A stretch of DNA of 64,000 nucleotides from Bradyrhizobium sp. B097 (GTDB lineage: Bacteria; Pseudomonadota; Alphaproteobacteria; Rhizobiales; Xanthobacteraceae), in the NCBI RefSeq assembly GCF_038957035.1, contig NZ_CP152412.1, positions 3,282,501 to 3,346,500 on the forward strand, read 5' to 3'. Shown here in pieces: positions 44,419-55,139 of the stretch. Under the pieces are notes generated by a model. It was not told the origin of the DNA. It did no database searches and saw nothing but the letters and a program-made list of their open reading frames with translations. Position numbers and translations under genes: made by a program. The first letter of the stretch is position 1; each line of letters opens with the position of its first letter.

Positions 44419-44552
44419 TTTAAAGTCTACTATTTCCTGAACCGTAGCTTGCGACGCGCAACCAACTATGGCTGGTTAGCGGCAGATTCGACAAGCCGAT
44501 CCGGCAAGCCGCCGGAGATCAACGGCCAGCCGGCTTGAGGGGTAGGCAAAAG

Positions 44553-45686
44553 GTGAGCGGCGACCCGACACTGGAGCGGATAGCCCAAGGCGAAGGACTG
44601 GCGTTGTGTGCGGCGGGCAACTGGACAGCCCGCTTTGCGCCCGCGCTCGAGCGGATCGTCTCCGACGCCGAGAAGCTGCGCGGCAGCCGTCCCCACATCT
44701 TCATCGACGTGTCGCAGGTCGCGAGCCTCGACACGTTCGGCGCGTGGCTGATCGAGCGGCTGCGCCGCAGCCTCAGCGATGCCAGCGCCGAAGCCGAGAT
44801 CGCGGGCCTCTCGGCCAATTATTCCAGCCTGGTCGACGAGGTCCGCCGCGTCGGCCCCGCGCCCAAGGCCGCGAGCGAACCGCTGCTGATATCGGGCATG
44901 CTCGAGCAGATCGGGCGCACCGTGGCCGGGGTCAGCGGCACCATCATCGGCCTCGTTGATATGCTCGGTGCGGTGCTGGCCGCGGCCGCCAAGGTGCTGA
45001 TCCATCCGCGCAGCTTCCGCTTCACCTCGACTGTGCATCACCTCGAGCAGGTCTGCTTGCGCGCGGTGCCGATCGTCGTGCTGATCACCTTCCTGATCGG
45101 CTGCATCATCTCGCAGCAGGGCATCTTCCATTTCCGCAGGTTCGGCGCCGATATCTTCGTGGTCGACATGCTGGGTGTGCTGGTGTTGCGCGAGATCGGC
45201 GTGCTGCTGGTCGCGATCATGGTCGCGGGCCGTTCCGGCTCGGCCTATACCGCCGAACTCGGCTCGATGAAGATGCGCGAGGAGATCGACGCGCTGCGCA
45301 CCATGGGCTTCGATCCGATCGAGGTCTTGATCCTGCCGCGCATGCTGGCACTGGTGCTGGCGCTGCCGATCCTGGCCTTCCTCGGCGCGATGGCCGCGCT
45401 CTATGGCGGCGGCCTGGTGGCCTGGCTCTATGGCGGCGTCGATCCGGAGGCCTTCCTGCTCCGCCTTCGTGATGCCATATCGATCGACCATTTCATCGTC
45501 GGCATGGTCAAGGCGCCTGTGATGGCTGCGGTGATCGGCATCGTCGCCTGCGTCGAGGGACTGGCGGTACAGGGCTCGGCGGAGTCGCTCGGACAGCACA
45601 CCACCGCGTCGGTGGTGAAAGGGATCTTCTTCGTGATCGTGATGGACGGCGTGTTCGCGATCTTCTTCGCCTCGATCGGGATGTGA
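44553..45686 (+). CDS. mlaE: MlaE-family lipid ABC permease with fused STAS domain
   Basis: A 377-residue protein: residues 1-100 form a STAS domain (CAAGNWTARF, FIDVSQVASLDTFGAWLIERL), normally the separate MlaB, and 150-377 are the MlaE permease with QQGIFHFRRFGAD, REIGVLLVAIMVAGRSGSAY, the EEIDALRTMG coupling helix and GIVACVEGL. It moves phospholipids or related lipids between membranes with the ATPase and MCE protein encoded next. A GTG at 44553, preceded by GAGGGG and TAGG, is preferred to a TTG at 44535. It overlaps or abuts the ATPase gene. Confidence 0.9.
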   Translation: MSGDPTLERIAQGEGLALCAAGNWTARFAPALERIVSDAEKLRGSRPHIFIDVSQVASLDTFGAWLIERLRRSLSDASAEAEIAGLSANYSSLVDEVRRVGPAPKAASEPLLISGMLEQIGRTVAGVSGTIIGLVDMLGAVLAAAAKVLIHPRSFRFTSTVHHLEQVCLRAVPIVVLITFLIGCIISQQGIFHFRRFGADIFVVDMLGVLVLREIGVLLVAIMVAGRSGSAYTAELGSMKMREEIDALRTMGFDPIEVLILPRMLALVLALPILAFLGAMAALYGGGLVAWLYGGVDPEAFLLRLRDAISIDHFIVGMVKAPVMAAVIGIVACVEGLAVQGSAESLGQHTTASVVKGIFFVIVMDGVFAIFFASIGM

Positions 45687-45688
45687 TC

Positions 45689-46459
45689 ATGGCGGAGCAG
45701 GACATCGACGCCATCATCCGGGTCCGCGACATCACGGTCCAGTTCGGCAACACCCGTGTGCTCGACGGCCTCGACCTCGACGTCAAGCGCGGCGAGATCC
45801 TCGGCTTCGTCGGCCCGTCCGGCGCCGGCAAATCGGTGCTGACGCGCACGATCATCGGACTCGTGCCGAAAGTCTCCGGCCGCATCGAAGTGTTTGGCGT
45901 CGATCTCGATGCCGCGAACTCGGCGCAGCGCCGCGCCGTCGAGCGGCGCTGGGGCATCCTGTTCCAGCAGGGCGCGCTGTTCTCCTCGCTCACGGTGCGC
46001 CAGAACATCCAGTTTCCGGCGCGCGAATATCTGCGGGTCTCGCAGCGGCTGCTCGACGAGATCATGGTGGCGAAGCTGGTGATGGTCGGGCTGAAGCCCG
46101 AGGTCGCCGATCGCTATCCGTCGGAACTGTCCGGCGGCATGATCAAGCGCGTCGCGCTGGCGCGCGCGCTCGCGCTCGATCCGGAGCTCGTGTTTCTCGA
46201 CGAGCCGACGTCGGGCCTCGATCCGATCGGCGCCGGCGATTTCGACGAGTTGGTGCGCACCCTGCAGCGCACTTTGGGGCTGACCGTTTTCATGGTAACC
46301 CACGATCTCGACAGTCTTTACACGGCGTGCGACCGTATCGCCGTTTTAGGGAACGGTAAGATCATTGCTGCAGGATCGATCGCCGACATGAAGGCATCGC
46401 AGCATCCGTGGTTGCAGCAATATTTCAACGGCAAGCGCGCCCGCGCCGTTGTGGCCTAG
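45689..46459 (+). CDS. mlaF: MlaF-family lipid ABC ATPase
   Basis: A 256-residue ABC ATPase. Walker A is VGPSGAGKS near residue 48, the Q-loop FQQGALFSSLT, the signature LSGGMIKR (Met instead of the usual Gln, as normal for MlaF), and Walker B VFLDEPTSGLDP. It powers the MlaE permease. The ATG at 45689 lies 2 bases after the mlaE stop; an in-frame GTG at 45683 would overlap it. The mlaD gene follows after 121 bases that hold a repeat. Confidence 0.92.
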   Translation: MAEQDIDAIIRVRDITVQFGNTRVLDGLDLDVKRGEILGFVGPSGAGKSVLTRTIIGLVPKVSGRIEVFGVDLDAANSAQRRAVERRWGILFQQGALFSSLTVRQNIQFPAREYLRVSQRLLDEIMVAKLVMVGLKPEVADRYPSELSGGMIKRVALARALALDPELVFLDEPTSGLDPIGAGDFDELVRTLQRTLGLTVFMVTHDLDSLYTACDRIAVLGNGKIIAAGSIADMKASQHPWLQQYFNGKRARAVVA

Positions 46460-46460
46460 C

Positions 46461-46505
46461 CCATGATCCCGAAACGAAAAGACCGGTTTTCGGACGAGAT
46501 CATGC
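46461..46505. repeat. Short palindromic repeat, type 4
   Basis: CATGATCCCGAAA at the left and TTTTCGGACGAGATCATG at the right form an interrupted inverted repeat around ACCGG. The wording (GATCATG ends around CCGGTTTTCGG) is very common between genes in Bradyrhizobium and Rhodopseudomonas. It lies inside the mla operon between mlaF and mlaD. Confidence 0.7.
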
Positions 46506-46580
46506 GCCAACAGGGAATTCGACGGGTTCGAACGCAGGCCGACTGCGCGAGCGCCCAAGAGTGATGAACGCGAGCAATTG

Positions 46581-47456
46581 ATGGAAACGCGGGCGAACTA
46601 CGTCTTGATCGGGGCTTTCACGCTGGCGGTAATCGCCGCGGCGTTCGGCTTCGTGCTGTGGTTCCAGAGCCTGCACACCACCAAGCAGCGCAGCCCCTTG
46701 CGGGTGATCTTCGAGGGGCCGGCGTCGGGCCTGCGCAACGGCGGCAATGTCAATTTTAACGGTATCCGGATAGGGGAAGTGGTCTCGGTCAAGCTCGACA
46801 ACCCCAGGCGCGTGGTCGCGCTGGCGATGATCGAGAACAACGCACCGCTGCGCAAGGACACCCTGGTCGGCCTCGAATTCCAGGGCCTGACCGGCGTCGC
46901 CGCGATCTCGCTGAAGGGCGGCGAGGAGGCCGCTCCGCCGGTGCCGCTGGATGAGGATGGCATCCCGGTTCTGACCGCCGACCCGAATGCGCTGCAGGAT
47001 GTCACCGAAGCGATCCGCGCTACCCTGCAAAACGTCAACCGCATCGTCGCCGACAATCAGCAGTCGGTGAAGAATTCGCTGAAGAATCTCGAGGTCTTCA
47101 CCCAGGCGCTGGCGCGCAATTCCGAGAAGATCGACAACGTCATGCTCAAGGTCGACGGCGTGATGGGCAAGGCCGACAATCTGATGCTGGGCCTCAATGC
47201 GATCGCGGGCGGCAACAATGGCAGCGAGCTGAACCTGATGGTGAAGTCGATCCGCGAGCTCGCCGACGATCTCGACAAGCGATCCAATCTCCTGATCAAC
47301 GACGGCCGCCGCACGCTGTCCGACATCAGCCGCGCCGTGAACAATTTCGACCGCAACCCGAGCCGGGTGATCTTCGGCGGCAGCAACAATGCCGCACCAG
47401 AGCCCGCGCCGGCTCCGGCCGCAGCACCGGCCGGCCCGCGGCGCCGGCAGCAATAG
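46581..47456 (+). CDS. mlaD: MlaD/MCE family substrate-binding protein
   Basis: A 291-residue protein with one N-terminal helix anchor (YVLIGAFTLAVIAAAFGFVLWF, positions 7-28) and a periplasmic MCE domain (FEGPASGLRNGGNVNFNGIRIGEV, ... LEFQGLTGVAAISLKGG), then about 130 residues of coiled coil (NSLKNLEVFTQALARNSEKID) and a Pro/Ala tail. It is the periplasmic lipid-carrying part of the MlaFED complex; the longer coiled-coil form resembles rhizobial and chloroplast TGD2-like proteins. Start at 46581 follows an upstream TTG. No mlaC is present next to it. Confidence 0.9.
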   Translation: METRANYVLIGAFTLAVIAAAFGFVLWFQSLHTTKQRSPLRVIFEGPASGLRNGGNVNFNGIRIGEVVSVKLDNPRRVVALAMIENNAPLRKDTLVGLEFQGLTGVAAISLKGGEEAAPPVPLDEDGIPVLTADPNALQDVTEAIRATLQNVNRIVADNQQSVKNSLKNLEVFTQALARNSEKIDNVMLKVDGVMGKADNLMLGLNAIAGGNNGSELNLMVKSIRELADDLDKRSNLLINDGRRTLSDISRAVNNFDRNPSRVIFGGSNNAAPEPAPAPAAAPAGPRRRQQ

Positions 47457-47964: not shown

Positions 47965-50900
47965 TTACCCCAGCCGTCCCGCGGCGTGGGCAAGCAGGGT
48001 GTAGACCAGCCCGGTTTCCGAGGTCAGGTGGCCGCTCAGCTCCTGCTGGCCGCGACCTTCGCGGGCGACTTCGTCGAGCAGGCGCTCGAATTCCGCGATG
48101 TAGCGGTCGACCGTCTGCTTGAAGCCGCGGTCGGCGCGGTACTTGCGGGCCACCTCGTCGAAGGCCTTCTGGCCGGCCGGCGTGTAGAGGCGCTTGGAGA
48201 ACGCCTTGTTCTCGCCGCGCTGGTAGCGATCCCACATCTCGGCCGCAAGCGTGCGGTCCATCAGCCGGCCGATGTCGAGCGACAGCGATTCCAGCGGATT
48301 GGCGGTCGGCTGCTGTTGCGGACGCGGGCGCTGCTGGGCGTCGCGGTTCTGCGGGGCAGGCGGCGGCGCGTCGCTGCGGTTGAGCAGGTCGGACAGCCAG
48401 CCATCGCCGTTGTTGGGGCCGGCCGGGCTGACCGACGGGGCCTCGGTGCGGCGCGAGGTGGTTGCCATGCCGAGATCCGGCGGCGGCAGCGTCGCGGCGC
48501 TGTTGCCATTGTCGCGCACGCTGTCCCGCATGCGCACGTCGGCGCGGCCGCCGGCGGCAGCCATCACCGGCTCCTCGTGGCGGACGCTGGCGCGGTTGGA
48601 CGAGACCACGTCGAGCCCGCGGCCGTGATGGGCGACGATGCGGTTCAGCTCGGCCAGGGCCTCGATCTGGTCGACGATCACCTTGCGCATCTGCGCAGTG
48701 TTTTCGGCGGCCTCCTGCGGCATTTCCAGCACGCCGCGGCGCAGCTCGTTGCGGGTGGCCTCGAGCTCGCTGTGCATCTCGCTCGCCATCTGCTTCATCG
48801 CCGTGACCATCGCGGAGAACTTCTCCGTCGATTCCTTGAACATCGCATCGGTCTCGGCGTTGCTCTGCTGGTAGAGGTCGCTCATGGCGTCGACGGTCTG
48901 CTGACGCTCGTTCTCGGCGGCCATGCGCACCGCCTCGAACTGCTTGCTGATCGCAGCCGAACCGGCGCCTGCGGTCTCCGCCACCACGCGCGCGATGTCG
49001 CGGGCGCGTTCTTCGGCCGCGCCGAGCGATTCATCGAGCAGCCCGGTGAAGCGCGACAGCCGCTGGTCGAGATCGGTGGTGCGCAGATCGATGGTCGTGA
49101 CCAGCGATTCCAGCGCCGACTTGCGCTCGCTGACGGAGGCCGTCGTTGAGCGGTTGGCCTGTTCGACCACGGCAGCCGCCTCGATCAGCGCCTTGCCATG
49201 GGTCTCGAACTGGCTCGACAGTGCGCCGAGATCTTCCAGCGCCTTGCCGGTCTTGCTGTTGAACACCGTGAGCTGGTCTTCCAGCGTCTGGGTCGCCACG
49301 CCGTTGCGCGAGGTGACGTCGTTCATGGCGGACACGAAGTCGGCCACGCGGGTCACCAGCGCGCGCTCCAGCGAGTTGAGGTTGTCGTGGGCGCCGGTCA
49401 GCACTTCCTGCAGCAGGATGTTGCCCTCGCGCAGCCGCTCGAACAGCGCCACCGTATCGGTGCGCAGGATCTTGCTGGTCTCCTGCATCTCCGTGACGGC
49501 CGAGATCGAGACCTGGCGCGACTGGTCGATCGCCGCGCGCGAGGCCTGCTCGAGCTCCTTGAGCGACTTCGCCACCGCGCCGGTCGCCTGATCGCCGGCC
49601 GAGGTGATGTTGCGCGCGACATCGCCGCCATGCGCCGCCATCGACTGCGAGAAGGCGAGGCCGCGGGTTTCGATCGCCCTCAGCGCGTCCGCGGTGGCGC
49701 GATCCATGTCGTTCGACAGCTGCGTGGTCTTGGCGGTCAGCGCCTCGACCAGCGAGCCGCGGCGACCGTCGACCATCTGCGACAGCCGCTCGGTCTGCTG
49801 CTGCACATAGGTGACGATCTCGTCGGTCTTGCCGGTCATCGCCGAGCCGAATGCGCTGGAAGCGGACAGCACCGAACGTTCGATGTCGGCGGAGGTCGTC
49901 TTGACCTTGGTCGAGACCTCGTTGGACATGGTGATCAGCGCGGCCTGTGCGTTCTGCGCAGAGGTCTGGATGTTGTCGGTGGTCTTGGCCGTGACCGAAC
50001 CCAGCGCGCGCTCGATATCGGTCGAGAGCGTGCGGATCTGGGCGGCGGCATCGGCGGAGGTCGCCGCAAACGAGCTCTGGGCCTCGCGGGCGCTGCCCAG
50101 GATGGTCTGTGCAGTCTCCGCGCTGGTCGTGGTCAGCGAGCGCTCGATCTCGACCGAGATCGCGCGGATCTGGGTTGCGGCCTCGTTGGACGTTGCCACG
50201 AACGAGTTCTGGGCATCGCGGGCGCTGCCGAGGATCGTCTGGGCGGTGTTGGTGCCGACCGAGGTCAGGGTGCGCTCGACATCGGCTGCCAGCGACTTGA
50301 CGTGGTTGGCTGCATCCGTCGACGCGGTGACGAGGGTGTTCTGCGCCTCGCGCGCGCCGGCCGTCAGCACCTCGACGGTGCCGGAACCGGCCATCGACAG
50401 CGCGCGCTGGATATCGGCAGCAAGCGCCGACACCTTTGTCGCAGACTCGGTCGATGCGTTGACCAGCATGCTCTGGGCTTCACGCGCGCCTGCCGTGATC
50501 GATTCCGCGGTGGCGGAGCCGGCCATCGACAGCGAGCGCTCCATGTCGGCCGCCAGCGTGCGGACCAGATCGGTGGCCTCGGTGGATGCGCCGGCCAGCG
50601 TGCTCTGGGCCTCGCGGGCGGAGGCGACGATGGCTTCCGCGGTGGCCGAGCCTGCCATCGACAGCGAACGCTCGATGTCGGCCGACAGGGTGCGGACCAG
50701 ATTGGTGGCGTCGGTCGAGGCGCCGGCCAGCGTGTTCTGGGCCTCGCGGGCGGAGGCGACGACGGCTTCCGCGGTCGCGGTGCCGGCGGTCGAGAGCGAG
50801 TGCTGCATGTCGGCCGCGAGCGTGCGGACCAGGTTGGTGGCTTCGGTCGACGCGCCGGCCAGCGTGCTCTGGGCCTCGCGGGCGGAGGCGACGACGGCTT

Positions 50901-53898
50901 CCGCGGTCGCGGAGCCGGCCATCGACAGCGAGCGCTCGACGTCGCTGGCGAGCGACTTCACCTGACCGGTGACGTCGGCCGATGTCGCGATCAGCGTGGT
51001 CTGGGCCTCGCGGGCGCCGGTCATGATCGCTTCGGCAGCGGCAGAGCCGGACATCGACAGCGATTGCTCGACATCGGAAGCCAGCGACTTGACCTGGCTT
51101 GCGGCTTCGATCGAGGCCGAGACCAGCGTGGTCTGCGCGTCGCGGGCGCCCGACAGCACCGAGGCTGCGGTGGCGCTACCGGCCGCCTGCAGCGTGCGCT
51201 CGACGTCCTCCGACAGCGCCTTGATCTGCGAGGCGACGTCGCCGGAGGCGGAGACCAGCGAGACCTGGGCGTCGCGGGCACTGGTGAGGATCGAGTTGGC
51301 GGCGCTGGTGCCGACGGCGGTCAGCACGCTCTCGACCTCGGCGGAGCTCTGCTTGAGCTGGTTGCCGACATCCGCGGACACGGTGAGCAGCGCCTGCTGC
51401 GCGGTGCGCGCGCCGGTCTGGATGGTTTCGCTGGTGTTGACCACGAGGTTGGTCAGCGAGCGCTCGGCGTCCTCGACATGGGACTTGATGCTCGACGACA
51501 ACATTTCGGCGCGGGACATCAGGTCCTCGCTCGCCTGGCGGCCGCTGCTCTCGATGCGGCCGGCGACGGCCTCGACGCGCGAGCCCAAGAGGTCCTCGAA
51601 CTGCGCGACGCGGGTGTCGATGTCACCGGCGATGACGCCGACGCGGCTCTCGATGCCCTGCTGGATGTCGGCGAAGCGCGCCGAGATGGTGTCGGTCAGG
51701 TTCGAGCTATGACCGCTGATGGTGTCGACGAGGCGGCTGTTGTGACCGTTGATGGTATCGGCGAGGCGGGTGCTGTGGCCGTTGATGGTGTCGACCAGGC
51801 GGTTGCTGTGGCCGTCGATGGTCTCGGTGACGCCGTTGATGCGGTGGTCGACCGCGGCGATCGCCTGCACGGTGCCCTCGGTCAGGGTCGTGGTGAGCAG
51901 GCCGAGGCGCGAGTCGATCGAGTGGATCGCCTGGGTGGCGCCTTCGGTCAGCTGGGTCGCGAGCGTGCCGAGATGGCCGTCGATGGTGTCGGTGACCGAC
52001 TTGGCGCGGCTCTCGAAGGTGACTTCGAGCGTCCGCATGCGGCCGTCGATCGCGTCATCCAGCGACTGCAGGCGGCCGTCGAACGAGCCGATCTTGGTGG
52101 CGAGCGATGAGTCGAACGACGACAGCTTGTCGGACAGCGAGGCGTCGAGATTGGTGACGCGGCTGCCCAGCGTGGTCTCGAATTGCAGCAGGCGCTGGTC
52201 GAGCGAAGCGGTGATCTCGCCGCTATTGCTGGTGACGCGATTGTCGAAGGTGTCGACATAGGTCTTCAGGCTGTCGGCGATGTCCTGGGTCCGCTGGCCC
52301 ATGCGCTCGACGATGTCGCCGCCGAACGTCTTCACGGTGCGGTCGAATTCCGAGATGTGGCGGGTGATCAGCGCGCCGAGCGTGCCGGAGTCGCGGGCGA
52401 ATTTCTCGGCGAGCTCGCTGCCGTGGTTCTTCACCAGGTCGTCGAACGCGCTCATCTGCAGCGACAGCGAGTCGTGCGCGGTCTCGGTCTGGCCCACCAC
52501 CTTGGCGACCAGCGAATTGACGGTGACGTCGAGCGCTTCGCTCGCCCTGTCGCCGGACGTCATGATCTGGCCGGCGAGGCGGTTGCCGGCGTCGTCGATC
52601 TTGCTGACCAGGTCGTTGCTGCGCAGTTCGAGCTCGAGCAGCAGCGAGTCCGCGGAATTCTTCAGGGAGTCGTGGACCTCTTCGGTGCGGTCGGAGATGC
52701 CGTCGACGATCGCAGACGAACGCTGCTCGAACTCGCCGGTGATGCGGTCGATGCGCTCGTTCAGCATCTCGTGGACGCGGTCGGCCAGGTCGACGAACTC
52801 GTCATGGACATGGCCGGTCTTGAAGTTGAGGCTGGTGGTGAGCCGCTCGGAGGCGTCCATCACCGCGCGCGTGGTCTCGGCGCTGGCTTCCTCGAGGCGG
52901 TCGAGCAGGTCGCCGCCGCGCTCGCCGAGCGCGAGGATCATGTTGTCGCCGGCATGGCTCAGCGCAGTCGTGATGTGCTGGCCGCGCTCTTCGAGCGCGC
53001 CGGTGATGCTCTTGGCGACCTCGTCGACGCGCGAGGCAATCGCGTCCGAGATCAGCGCGATGTCGTGGCGCAGGTCGATCTGCACGCCGGAGATCGCGCT
53101 GCGCACCTGCTCGGCCTGGCCGACCAGATTGTCGCGCTGATGGGCGATGTCCTGCAGCAGCGCGCGGATACGCACTTCATTGTCGGAATAGGCGCGCTCC
53201 AGCGCCGCCACCTCGTTGGCAACCAGGGTCTCGAGCTCGCCGGCGCGCGCGATCGCGCGTTCGACGCCGTCGCCCATCGCCGCGACCTCGCGGCGGATCG
53301 CCTGGCCGACCGTCACCATGGAATCGGCGGCGGCGTTTTCCGGCTCGGAGAATCGCATTGCGACCTGCGCCATCGATTGCGCGATCATCTGCATGCGCTG
53401 ACCGTGCGAGGCGAGGCTGGCGAGATAATAGAACAGCAGCACCGGAACGGCGAACAGCGCGGCGAGGCCGGCGAGCACCAGGACGCCGGTGCCCTGGGCC
53501 ATCGAAGCCTGCAGGGCCGGCCAGAACGCGATGGTGAGGATGACGCCGCCGAGCAGCCAGGCGCCGGAGCAGACGAAAAACAGCGTGAAGGCGTTGCGGG
53601 CGCGGCCTCCCTGCAGCGTCTGCAGCATCTGGCCGATGGTCTCGCGATCATCATTGGCGGCGCGGCGCGGCGCGCGCGGCTCCTCGATCGGCTCGAACAC
53701 CGAACGATCGGTATTCGCACGGGACTCGAACGATGCGGCCGAAAAATCCGGAGCTGACGGCGGCAGGCTCGGCGGCGCGGCGCCGTCGTTGAGGGGGCTG
53801 CGGCTCTCCGCGCCTTGCTCGCTGATGTTGAGGGCTTCCTGGATGGCAGAAAGCGCGACTTCGGTGGGATCTTTGACCTTCTTGGGAGTGTTCGCCAT
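47965..53898 (-). CDS. Giant membrane-anchored hendecad coiled-coil protein, GPR/RgsE-like polar growth factor
   Basis: A 1,977-residue protein. Residues 1-100 are soluble and proline-rich; two membrane helices follow at about 103-126 and 138-161; then about 1,600 residues are almost unbroken coiled coil. Residues 685-735 are five 11-residue units of the form (V/A)DTINGHSxRL, and about 820-1345 are twelve 44-residue units centred on (S/G)AREAQ. A Pro/Gln linker leads to a conserved C-terminal domain (RLYTPAGQKAFDEVARKY, TSETGLVYTLLAHAAGRLG). This plan matches GPR of Agrobacterium and RgsE of Sinorhizobium, large apolipoprotein-like proteins needed for polar growth. Start MANTPKK at 53898 is chosen over 54030; its ribosome binding site is weak. 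Confidence 0.75.
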   Translation of the reverse strand: MANTPKKVKDPTEVALSAIQEALNISEQGAESRSPLNDGAAPPSLPPSAPDFSAASFESRANTDRSVFEPIEEPRAPRRAANDDRETIGQMLQTLQGGRARNAFTLFFVCSGAWLLGGVILTIAFWPALQASMAQGTGVLVLAGLAALFAVPVLLFYYLASLASHGQRMQMIAQSMAQVAMRFSEPENAAADSMVTVGQAIRREVAAMGDGVERAIARAGELETLVANEVAALERAYSDNEVRIRALLQDIAHQRDNLVGQAEQVRSAISGVQIDLRHDIALISDAIASRVDEVAKSITGALEERGQHITTALSHAGDNMILALGERGGDLLDRLEEASAETTRAVMDASERLTTSLNFKTGHVHDEFVDLADRVHEMLNERIDRITGEFEQRSSAIVDGISDRTEEVHDSLKNSADSLLLELELRSNDLVSKIDDAGNRLAGQIMTSGDRASEALDVTVNSLVAKVVGQTETAHDSLSLQMSAFDDLVKNHGSELAEKFARDSGTLGALITRHISEFDRTVKTFGGDIVERMGQRTQDIADSLKTYVDTFDNRVTSNSGEITASLDQRLLQFETTLGSRVTNLDASLSDKLSSFDSSLATKIGSFDGRLQSLDDAIDGRMRTLEVTFESRAKSVTDTIDGHLGTLATQLTEGATQAIHSIDSRLGLLTTTLTEGTVQAIAAVDHRINGVTETIDGHSNRLVDTINGHSTRLADTINGHNSRLVDTISGHSSNLTDTISARFADIQQGIESRVGVIAGDIDTRVAQFEDLLGSRVEAVAGRIESSGRQASEDLMSRAEMLSSSIKSHVEDAERSLTNLVVNTSETIQTGARTAQQALLTVSADVGNQLKQSSAEVESVLTAVGTSAANSILTSARDAQVSLVSASGDVASQIKALSEDVERTLQAAGSATAASVLSGARDAQTTLVSASIEAASQVKSLASDVEQSLSMSGSAAAEAIMTGAREAQTTLIATSADVTGQVKSLASDVERSLSMAGSATAEAVVASAREAQSTLAGASTEATNLVRTLAADMQHSLSTAGTATAEAVVASAREAQNTLAGASTDATNLVRTLSADIERSLSMAGSATAEAIVASAREAQSTLAGASTEATDLVRTLAADMERSLSMAGSATAESITAGAREAQSMLVNASTESATKVSALAADIQRALSMAGSGTVEVLTAGAREAQNTLVTASTDAANHVKSLAADVERTLTSVGTNTAQTILGSARDAQNSFVATSNEAATQIRAISVEIERSLTTTSAETAQTILGSAREAQSSFAATSADAAAQIRTLSTDIERALGSVTAKTTDNIQTSAQNAQAALITMSNEVSTKVKTTSADIERSVLSASSAFGSAMTGKTDEIVTYVQQQTERLSQMVDGRRGSLVEALTAKTTQLSNDMDRATADALRAIETRGLAFSQSMAAHGGDVARNITSAGDQATGAVAKSLKELEQASRAAIDQSRQVSISAVTEMQETSKILRTDTVALFERLREGNILLQEVLTGAHDNLNSLERALVTRVADFVSAMNDVTSRNGVATQTLEDQLTVFNSKTGKALEDLGALSSQFETHGKALIEAAAVVEQANRSTTASVSERKSALESLVTTIDLRTTDLDQRLSRFTGLLDESLGAAEERARDIARVVAETAGAGSAAISKQFEAVRMAAENERQQTVDAMSDLYQQSNAETDAMFKESTEKFSAMVTAMKQMASEMHSELEATRNELRRGVLEMPQEAAENTAQMRKVIVDQIEALAELNRIVAHHGRGLDVVSSNRASVRHEEPVMAAAGGRADVRMRDSVRDNGNSAATLPPPDLGMATTSRRTEAPSVSPAGPNNGDGWLSDLLNRSDAPPPAPQNRDAQQRPRPQQQPTANPLESLSLDIGRLMDRTLAAEMWDRYQRGENKAFSKRLYTPAGQKAFDEVARKYRADRGFKQTVDRYIAEFERLLDEVAREGRGQQELSGHLTSETGLVYTLLAHAAGRLG
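49856..51438 (-). repeat. Twelve tandem 132-bp coding repeats
   Basis: Inside the giant gene the 44-codon unit repeats about 12 times in phase. The best conserved part, CTCGCGGGCGGAGGCGACGA on the + strand, recurs at 50611, 50743 and 50875, exactly 132 bases apart and nearly identical. The outer copies are more diverged. Confidence 0.9.
51706..51842 (-). repeat. Tandem 33-bp coding repeats
   Basis: Four to five 33-bp units encode the 11-residue pattern DTI(N/D/S)GH(S/N)xRL-V/A. They are N-terminal to the 132-bp repeats in the giant coiled-coil gene and show its basic 11-residue period. Confidence 0.85.
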
Positions 53899-54277
53899 GT
53901 TCAGTCTGAGCCCTCTCACTATTTTACGCGTCGGCGAGCCTGCGATCGTCCCCACGCAAGCTCGAAGCCGGTGCCCACAAGCGGAGCGCAAGCGCCCCCT
54001 CGGCGGCTTGTCCGCTACATCCGCAAACATCCTATTGGGAGAGCGATGCGAATGAAATGCTTGCGATTAATACTTTCTTAATCATCGTTAACAGCTTTGC
54101 GCCATAAGGCCTTATGGGTACTCGAAATTCCTGCCGCAGAGGGCCGATTGTGTCCGGAAATTGTCCAGAATCGGGCGGTTTTGCCGATCGTCCCGACAAC
54201 AATTCGTTAACCAGTTTCGTGATTGGCTGGGCGAACGGTCCGCCGGTGAAGCCCGGCAGAGACGACAGGGACAGGCC
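53899..54277. promoter_or_regulatory. Divergent promoter region, giant gene and hpt gene
   Basis: This 379-base region separates the giant coiled-coil gene from the hpt gene. It holds an AT-rich patch near 54060-54095 with a CtrA-type site. No gene is supported; an open frame from about 53899 to 54030 in front of the giant gene looks fortuitous. Confidence 0.6.
54067..54081. promoter_or_regulatory. CtrA-type binding site
   Basis: TTAA (54067-54070), 7 bases, TTAA (54078-54081), the TTAA-N7-TTAA plan recognised by the cell-cycle regulator CtrA; a further TTAAC half-site lies at 54088-54092. The site is about 170 bases upstream of the giant gene and 200 upstream of hpt, so it could serve either. 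Confidence 0.5.
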
Positions 54278-54655
54278 ATGCCGCTTCATCTCGAACGGGT
54301 CGAATGGACGCAATCGCCGCCGCTCGCGCCGGGCGACGGGCCGATCGACGTCGATCACCTCAGGCGGATGACGCTGGGCGACCCGGGGCTGGAGCGGGAA
54401 GTGCTGGCGATGTTCTCGACCCAGTCGGCCCGGATCCTTGGCGAGCTGGCTGCCTTGCCGCCGGAGGCTCCGACCCACGCCCACACCCTGAAAGGATCGG
54501 CGCGGGCGATTGGCGCCTTCGGCGTTGCCGAGGCGGCCGCCAACCTGGAAACCGCGCTCACCGCCGGTTCCGACCCGGCCCAGCCGCTCGCCGCGCTCGG
54601 GGCCGCGATCGCCGAAGCGCGCACGGCGATCGAGCTGATTCTGGGCCGCTCCTAG
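54278..54655 (+). CDS. Orphan Hpt (histidine phosphotransfer) domain protein
   Basis: A 125-residue protein. A short N-terminal stretch precedes a four-helix Hpt domain with the phospho-accepting His69 in [14 protein letters not shown] and the helper Lys72 and Gly. It has no kinase or receiver domain, so it must pass phosphate between separate proteins, as ChpT or CheA-type relays do. AGGGA precedes the ATG at 54278. It is divergent from the giant coiled-coil gene. Confidence 0.87.
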
Positions 54656-54818: not shown

Positions 54819-55139
54819 ATGGCCAAAATACACTTTATCGACCATTCCGGAGAGAAACGCTCCATTGATATCGAGAACGGCGCGACGGTGATGGAAGGTG
54901 CGATCCGCAACGCCATTCCCGGCATTGAAGCCGAATGCGGTGGCGCCTGCGCCTGTGCGACCTGCCATGTCTATGTCGATGACGCGTGGCGCGAGAAGGT
55001 CGGCGCGCCGTCGCCGATGGAAGAGGACATGCTGGATTTCGGCTTCGACGTGCGTCCGAATTCGCGGCTGTCCTGCCAGATCAAGGTGACCGACGATCTC
55101 GACGGACTGGTCGTGTCGACGCCGGAGCGGCAGGCCTGA
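54819..55139 (+). CDS. 2Fe-2S ferredoxin, adrenodoxin type
   Basis: A 106-residue electron carrier. Cluster ligands are Cys40, Cys46, Cys49 (C-x5-C-x2-C) and Cys86; a further Cys44 is not a ligand. MEEDMLDF after the cluster loop is typical of the ISC/adrenodoxin type (Fdx, palustrisredoxin). Such ferredoxins pass electrons to cytochromes P450 or to Fe-S cluster assembly. The ferredoxin-NADP reductase gene at 55770 lies only 630 bases away and could reduce it. No clear ribosome binding site; the ATG begins directly with the first strand. Confidence 0.92.

Follow-up and report, generated by a model that had tools for sequence, protein, structure and literature searches.

The long open reading frame on the minus strand of the window, by which we mean the whole 64,000-nucleotide stretch of Bradyrhizobium sp. 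B097, is supported by sequence comparison as the Bradyrhizobium ortholog of the polar-growth scaffold called GPR in Agrobacterium (2,115 residues) and RgsE in S. meliloti (2,089 residues). A probability of roughly 0.78 is given to the reading that this protein is a membrane-anchored scaffold at the growing pole, in which a hendecad rod forms a coiled coil and a C-terminal domain on a proline-rich linker acts on envelope synthesis; for Bradyrhizobium, we infer where it localises, how it oligomerises and what it does. The gene is expected by family, as GPR/RgsE orthologs occur throughout the order (Rhizobiales). The family itself is known, but its regular rod architecture was not found described: a literature search returned no description of the hendecad plan, of homology to TipN at the domain level for both ends, or of the conserved Mla–GPR–Hpt–ferredoxin neighbourhood. 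GPR is a main structural candidate for the organisation of pole growth in rod-shaped bacteria that lack MreB, and its helical region of about 1,700 residues has previously been read as apolipoprotein-like; the hendecad frame offers a concrete, testable structure for it. The gene and the parts of its product are as follows.

47965..53898, minus strand: GPR/RgsE ortholog, 1,977 residues (ATG at 53898, stop at 47965-47967; Pfam PF01442, E 1.1e-49)
53521..53592, minus strand: predicted membrane helix 1, about residues 103-126 (hydropathy peak; within AlphaFold2 helix 84-124; segment homologous to TipN by profile)
53419..53487, minus strand: predicted membrane helix 2, about residues 138-160 (hydropathy peak; within AlphaFold2 helix 138-184)
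53044..53418, minus strand: conserved membrane-proximal region, about residues 161-285, common to RgsE and TipN
49519..53121, minus strand: hendecad rod spanning residues 260-1460, with 109 units of eleven residues in a single frame and free of Pro, Cys and Trp
51688..51819, minus strand: four near-identical single 11-residue units, residues 694-737 (TRF 33-bp array at 51706-51826)
49870..51321, minus strand: eleven 44-residue units of four hendecads each, residues 860-1343 (TRF 132-bp arrays)
48619..49518, minus strand: distal rod, about residues 1461-1760 (local period 3.565-3.64)
48331..48591, minus strand: Pro-rich low-complexity linker, about residues 1770-1856, recognised from the sequence
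47968..48330, minus strand: C-terminal helical domain, residues 1857-1977 (found in 284/297 genomes of the order and 112/289 of the class)

The 1,977-residue frame named in the sequence-only reading is present at the stated coordinates, on the minus strand, and its start is well marked: MAN[TN]PKK opens all 72 Bradyrhizobium orthologs compared, and another in-frame ATG lies upstream at 54030. These 72 are locus L001 together with the 71 of 80 loci that were readable whole, the other nine having no complete frame; a few of the 80 records carry names to family or class level only. In its own genome (one contig, 9.25 Mb) the protein matches only itself. About 100 residues precede the two predicted membrane helices, which are followed by the membrane-proximal region, the rod, the linker and the 121-residue C-terminal domain. 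The membrane-proximal region is predicted to be helical with a single break near the conserved Pro 186; no proline at all occurs in residues 187-1726. AlphaFold2 models residues 67-303 (41 sequences; mean pLDDT 90.6, pTM 0.48) as a helical membrane hairpin that, after a break near Pro 186, is followed by a single helix at 187-302. The C-terminal domain is predicted to be all-helical (pLDDT 81.9, pTM 0.73), and a fold comparison of this model gave no clear match.

The end domains had been said to match GPR/RgsE, and dissimilarity there had been named as one observation that would overturn the assignment; both ends turned out to be similar. Residues 70-280 are 40% identical (E 8e-52) and the last 130 residues 47% identical (E 5e-42) to a 2,089-residue S. 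meliloti protein annotated as kinesin (record CP090106.1, strain Ak57), which is taken as RgsE (SMc00190) by its length, its annotation and the order-wide single copy. Agrobacterium GPR was compared through its description in PMC8262873 only. With these proteins the window protein has in common two N-terminal membrane helices, a PF01442 helical region within a chain of about 2,000 residues, a Pro-rich linker, the conserved C-terminal domain, single copy, and the gene order with Hpt and ferredoxin neighbours. The rod differs in sequence and in repeat content (the 44-residue units), and PF01442 covers 12 stretches of the S. meliloti protein versus 8 here. The NCBIfam model of the anti-phage protein ZorA reaches 18.9 bits against a cut-off of 500.

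What is known of the family comes from two species. RgsE is reported as a homolog of Agrobacterium GPR, membrane-anchored with a cytoplasmic location, which interacts with TolQ, RgsA and RgsS and has homologs in every Rhizobiales family, with distant homologs also in Emcibacterales and Rhodospirillales (PMC7327166). Both the Agrobacterium and the S. meliloti members are reported to form a ring or focus at the growing pole, and their depletion to cause a shape defect (PMC8262873, PMC7327166), and Bradyrhizobium is described as growing at the new pole (PMC11031950). Of the proposal that this gene encodes a candidate polar growth organiser, the family assignment is the part that stands, with end domains, gene order and single copy all fitting GPR/RgsE; the polar role in Bradyrhizobium is one that we infer.

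The gene order concerns the following neighbours.

54161..54655, plus strand: stand-alone Hpt protein, divergent, with the motif HTLKGSA and an uncertain start codon (PF01627, E 2e-8)
54822..55139, plus strand: 2Fe-2S ferredoxin (PF00111, E 2.2e-12)
44535..47456, plus strand: genes for MlaE, an ABC ATPase in the MlaF position and MlaD, convergent with the GPR gene (PF02405, PF00005, PF02470)

The Hpt and ferredoxin genes lie upstream of the GPR gene in S. meliloti as they do in the window. Across 20 further loci of the order (L148-L167), which represent 19 families besides that of the window plus another genus of the latter, the ferredoxin gene is upstream in every case, divergent in 19 and on the same strand in L149, and an Hpt gene is found in 14. 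A refined profile places Hpt upstream in 21/27 loci of the order and in 6/21 outside it; the window's own Hpt protein keeps an intact H-x-L-K-G motif. An MlaD match stands tail-to-tail with the GPR gene in 10/20 loci of the order and 5/20 outside, as read in the fetched sequence, which reaches at most about 3 kb downstream; the S. meliloti stretch yielded no MlaD match. Such conservation of gene order suggests a functional link of Hpt, ferredoxin and Mla with GPR, and a literature search on RgsE together with Hpt found no description of an Hpt–GPR gene link. As a separate observation, a Sphingomonas record called a plasmid (L122:6018-8342) encodes a GPR-family protein of 774 residues, and in the Hpt-like gene beside it the motif His seems to be replaced (AALRLKG).

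Over residues 200-1800, the hydrophobicity spectrum of the protein peaks at a period of 3.665 residues (11/3 = 3.667) with a power of 119; none of 200 shuffles exceeded 11, and the power at the heptad period of 3.5 is 0.1. In a fixed 11-residue frame over residues 260-1460, the core position holds I, L, V, M or F in 105 of the 109 units, and the best frame of 1,000 shuffled sequences reaches 39% at most; these two measures confirm the proposed 11-residue period. Three sections can be told apart. Residues 260-600 carry two adjacent hydrophobic stripes (28/31 and 31/31 units), and the core is hydrophobic in all 24 units of residues 601-860 and all 52 of residues 861-1436. In the last of these sections, one core flank is 98% Ala, Ser, Thr or Gly, the other 40% Ala and 40% I, L, V, M or F, and an outer position is 69% Asp or Glu. 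The 44-residue repeats were correctly read as four 11-residue units: eleven follow in register at 860-1343, the lag-44 identity is 0.51 over 860-1420, and TRF reports 132-bp arrays. The block of single units noted at 685-735 was likewise found, as four units at 694-737 with a lag-11 identity of 0.56 over 680-740. The hendecad plan does not extend to the whole rod, as had been proposed, but holds for residues 260-1460, about 1,200 residues; windows past about 1460 peak at 3.565-3.64, near the values of family members outside the order.

A period of 11/3 does not by itself prove a coiled coil, because the stretch of human apoA-IV that was tested shows it too, in the same 11-residue frame and with a best-frame core occupancy of 0.94. 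The rod might instead be an apolipoprotein-like amphipathic surface helix that gathers lipid at the pole membrane or lies on it, as has been put forward for GPR, keeping the 11/3 period without any coiled coil. PF01442 scores 169.2 bits against a cut-off of 90, apoA-IV provides the only PDB sequence matches at E up to 1e-3 (best 2e-5), Mla phospholipid-transport genes adjoin the GPR gene, and a lipid-related function of GPR has been argued for (PMC8262873). The likeness to apoA-IV nevertheless consists of helical periodicity and a weak sequence match, and the rod keeps one or two, locally three, core positions of eleven and has no broad nonpolar face. Lipid-binding apolipoproteins are built from 22-residue helices punctuated by proline, with a strongly amphipathic lipid face flanked by basic residues. 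Neither trait is seen in residues 260-1460, where 0 of 1,201 residues are proline and K+R amount to 100 versus 162 D+E (net charge -62), whereas the apoA-IV stretch has 6 prolines in 192 residues and 30 K+R versus 35 D+E. By the HELIQUEST-type discriminant D, with a threshold of 1.34, none of 1,183 windows lies above it. Brevundimonas TipN, whose ends appear homologous, gives no PF01442 hit at E 1e-3. The absence of prolines and the net negative charge, both read from the sequence, weaken the case for a lipid-binding role, and we regard this explanation as unlikely.

In the preferred reading, that of a coiled-coil scaffold, the two predicted N-terminal helices would anchor the protein in the inner membrane, as anchoring has been reported for RgsE (PMC7327166). 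The rod of about 109 hendecads would then be nearly straight and, fully extended, up to roughly 180 nm long. A helix rises by about 0.149 nm per residue, so that 1,201 residues measure about 178 nm. Through its narrow hydrophobic stripe, the rod may pack with others into higher-order coiled-coil assemblies similar to the GPR ring reported at the growing pole of Agrobacterium, which is described as hexameric (PMC8262873). Hendecads are said to supercoil very little, and their tight central packing to call for higher oligomers or small central residues (PMC9858780). Since the centre of the stripe is occupied by a large hydrophobic residue, the analysis suggests assemblies larger than dimers, which would agree with the reported hexamer. 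In Agrobacterium, deletion of the GPR helical domain A-IV-1 is reported to interfere with hexamer formation, and GPR that lacks the predicted 20-residue coiled coil of A-IV-1 to make paired foci still (PMC8262873).

The C-terminal domain, on its flexible Pro-rich linker, would dock or regulate the envelope-synthesis machinery rather than build the ring, the partner being conjectural. It is placed there because the C terminus of GPR is needed for function (removal of 221 residues abolishes it), yet paired foci still form, with abnormal shape, after removal of 332 residues, as reported in PMC8262873. Long hendecad rods are also described in Scy and FilP, proteins of polarised growth in Streptomyces, which differ in their DivIVA-like N-terminal motif and in the Ala-rich cores of their hendecad dimers (PMC9858780), where the window rod has a large hydrophobic centre. 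The window protein, unlike Scy and FilP, has membrane helices, and a DivIVA search of it gave no match up to E 1. The likeness is presumably architectural and convergent.

Comparison within the genus shows how the rod changes. Between two conserved anchors, 26 different rod lengths occur among the 72 Bradyrhizobium orthologs; relative to the rod of the window protein, the extremes are 403 residues fewer and 199 more. The intervals flanking the rod differ by single residues. Taken modulo 11, the lengths fall into class 4 in 61 orthologs, class 0 in 10 (the window protein among them) and class 1 in one, so that two classes cover 71/72; modulo 7, all seven classes are represented. This pattern may arise partly from recombination between the 33-bp and 132-bp repeats. 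The frame is held in the sequence as well, as in ortholog L069, where the core position is hydrophobic in 104/104 units. As far as these sequences tell, the number of hendecad units varies freely among species and the 11-residue frame is retained. The 71 orthologs without L109 span 25 lengths of about 75 to 121 hendecads, a natural series on rod length versus ring size. L109 itself (Bradyrhizobium sp. AT1, 2,180 residues) is the sole member of class 1 and has no hendecad pattern between about 775 and 1350, perhaps owing to a frameshift in the assembly.

Beyond the order, the C-terminal domain leads to TipN. A profile of five sequences matched 112 of 289 genomes of the class, 4 from the order and 108 from outside it. 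One weak match (2e-4) was a protein recorded as hypothetical; its close relatives in Brevundimonas bear the name tipN. In hhalign comparisons with TipN, the membrane region (47 members) reaches a probability of 98.3% (P 1.1e-14, 208 columns; reversed TipN 0.67%) and the C-terminal domain (48 members) 94.8% (P 5.5e-8, 109 columns; reversed TipN 0.1%, four mid-rod segments below 1%), both values resting on profiles that include intermediates from outside the order. With members of the order alone the probabilities are 93.5% and 84.2%, respectively. The TipN set of 43 sequences, thinned by shared 4-mers, is narrow (Neff 1.5). A similarity of GPR and TipN has already been mentioned (PMC8546619) and the two have been called analogous (PMC13170164); here it is extended to both end domains, which are homologous to TipN as judged by profile. 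This homology would join the marking of the pole in Caulobacter to polar growth in rhizobia.

The rods tell the two proteins apart. The Brevundimonas TipN compared has about 830 residues, far fewer than the 1,977 of the window protein, and in three TipN sequences the rod has a median period of 3.575 and no window at 11/3; in the window protein, only the distal rod comes near 3.57, residues 260-1460 being at 11/3. In 24 of 27 loci of the order (exceptions L114, L115 and L165), 50% or more of the rod windows, each of 165 residues, are at 11/3, whereas 19 of 20 loci outside have none and L134 has 15%. Because such windows are typical of the order and nearly absent outside it, the pure hendecad rod seems to have been added inside the order. 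The picture that we favour is of an alphaproteobacterial family that includes TipN, in which the order would have expanded a hendecad segment between an ancestral membrane part and an ancestral distal rod with C-terminal domain, as periods and profiles indicate. The two exceptions L114 and L115 (G069 and G248, family f24) have long rods with many similar repeats and a median local period of 3.615-3.62.

This wide distribution, with 108 of the 112 matching class genomes lying outside the order and MreB present in 19/21 of the out-of-order genomes tested, could also be taken to mean that the protein is a static rod of the envelope or a tether of the chromosome, and that the pole function is a specialisation of the Rhizobiaceae; cells without RgsE still grow, if slowly (PMC7327166). 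Both characterised members from the order and TipN of the Caulobacterales are, however, reported as pole proteins (PMC8262873, PMC7327166, PMC13170164), and they share conserved end domains with the window protein, which makes a static role highly improbable.

A bolder version of the TipN connection would see GPR as a giant TipN, an ancestral alphaproteobacterial new-pole landmark, with a rod that the order lengthened by amplifying hendecads in frame alongside the loss of MreB, rod length as the ruler of the ring, and Hpt, ferredoxin and Mla as ties to a phosphorelay and to lipid supply. We consider it doubtful as a whole. Were it true, GPR and Streptomyces Scy would be parallel cases reached by convergence. 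In the 10-kb TipN stretch (L168), neither Hpt nor ferredoxin was matched.

Loss of MreB was considered as the cause of long rods and set aside. The window genome holds no MreB match reaching E 1e-30; weaker ones (at most 60.6 bits) fall in frames of 644, 657, 451 and 440 residues, the first two of DnaK size. In the order, MreB was found in 33/297 genomes, 32 of which also have the GPR-family C-terminal domain, in frames of 915-1,498 residues in 27 and of 170-815 residues, perhaps cut, in 5. The median frame is 1,083 residues with MreB (22 loci) versus 1,837 without (43 loci; Mann–Whitney p 1.9e-8), in a hand-picked, non-random set of 65 loci whose last 20 MreB-less members were chosen partly as short or in new families. 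On a tree of the loci, the MreB label changes 9 times, where 200 shuffles average 19.7 changes, and the longer rods of MreB-less members of the order are largely a clade effect. The MreB-less loci L190-L196 are short as well (939-1,308 residues), and outside the order long rods occur together with MreB in L134 (2,121 residues, G530) and L138 (2,029 residues, G514).
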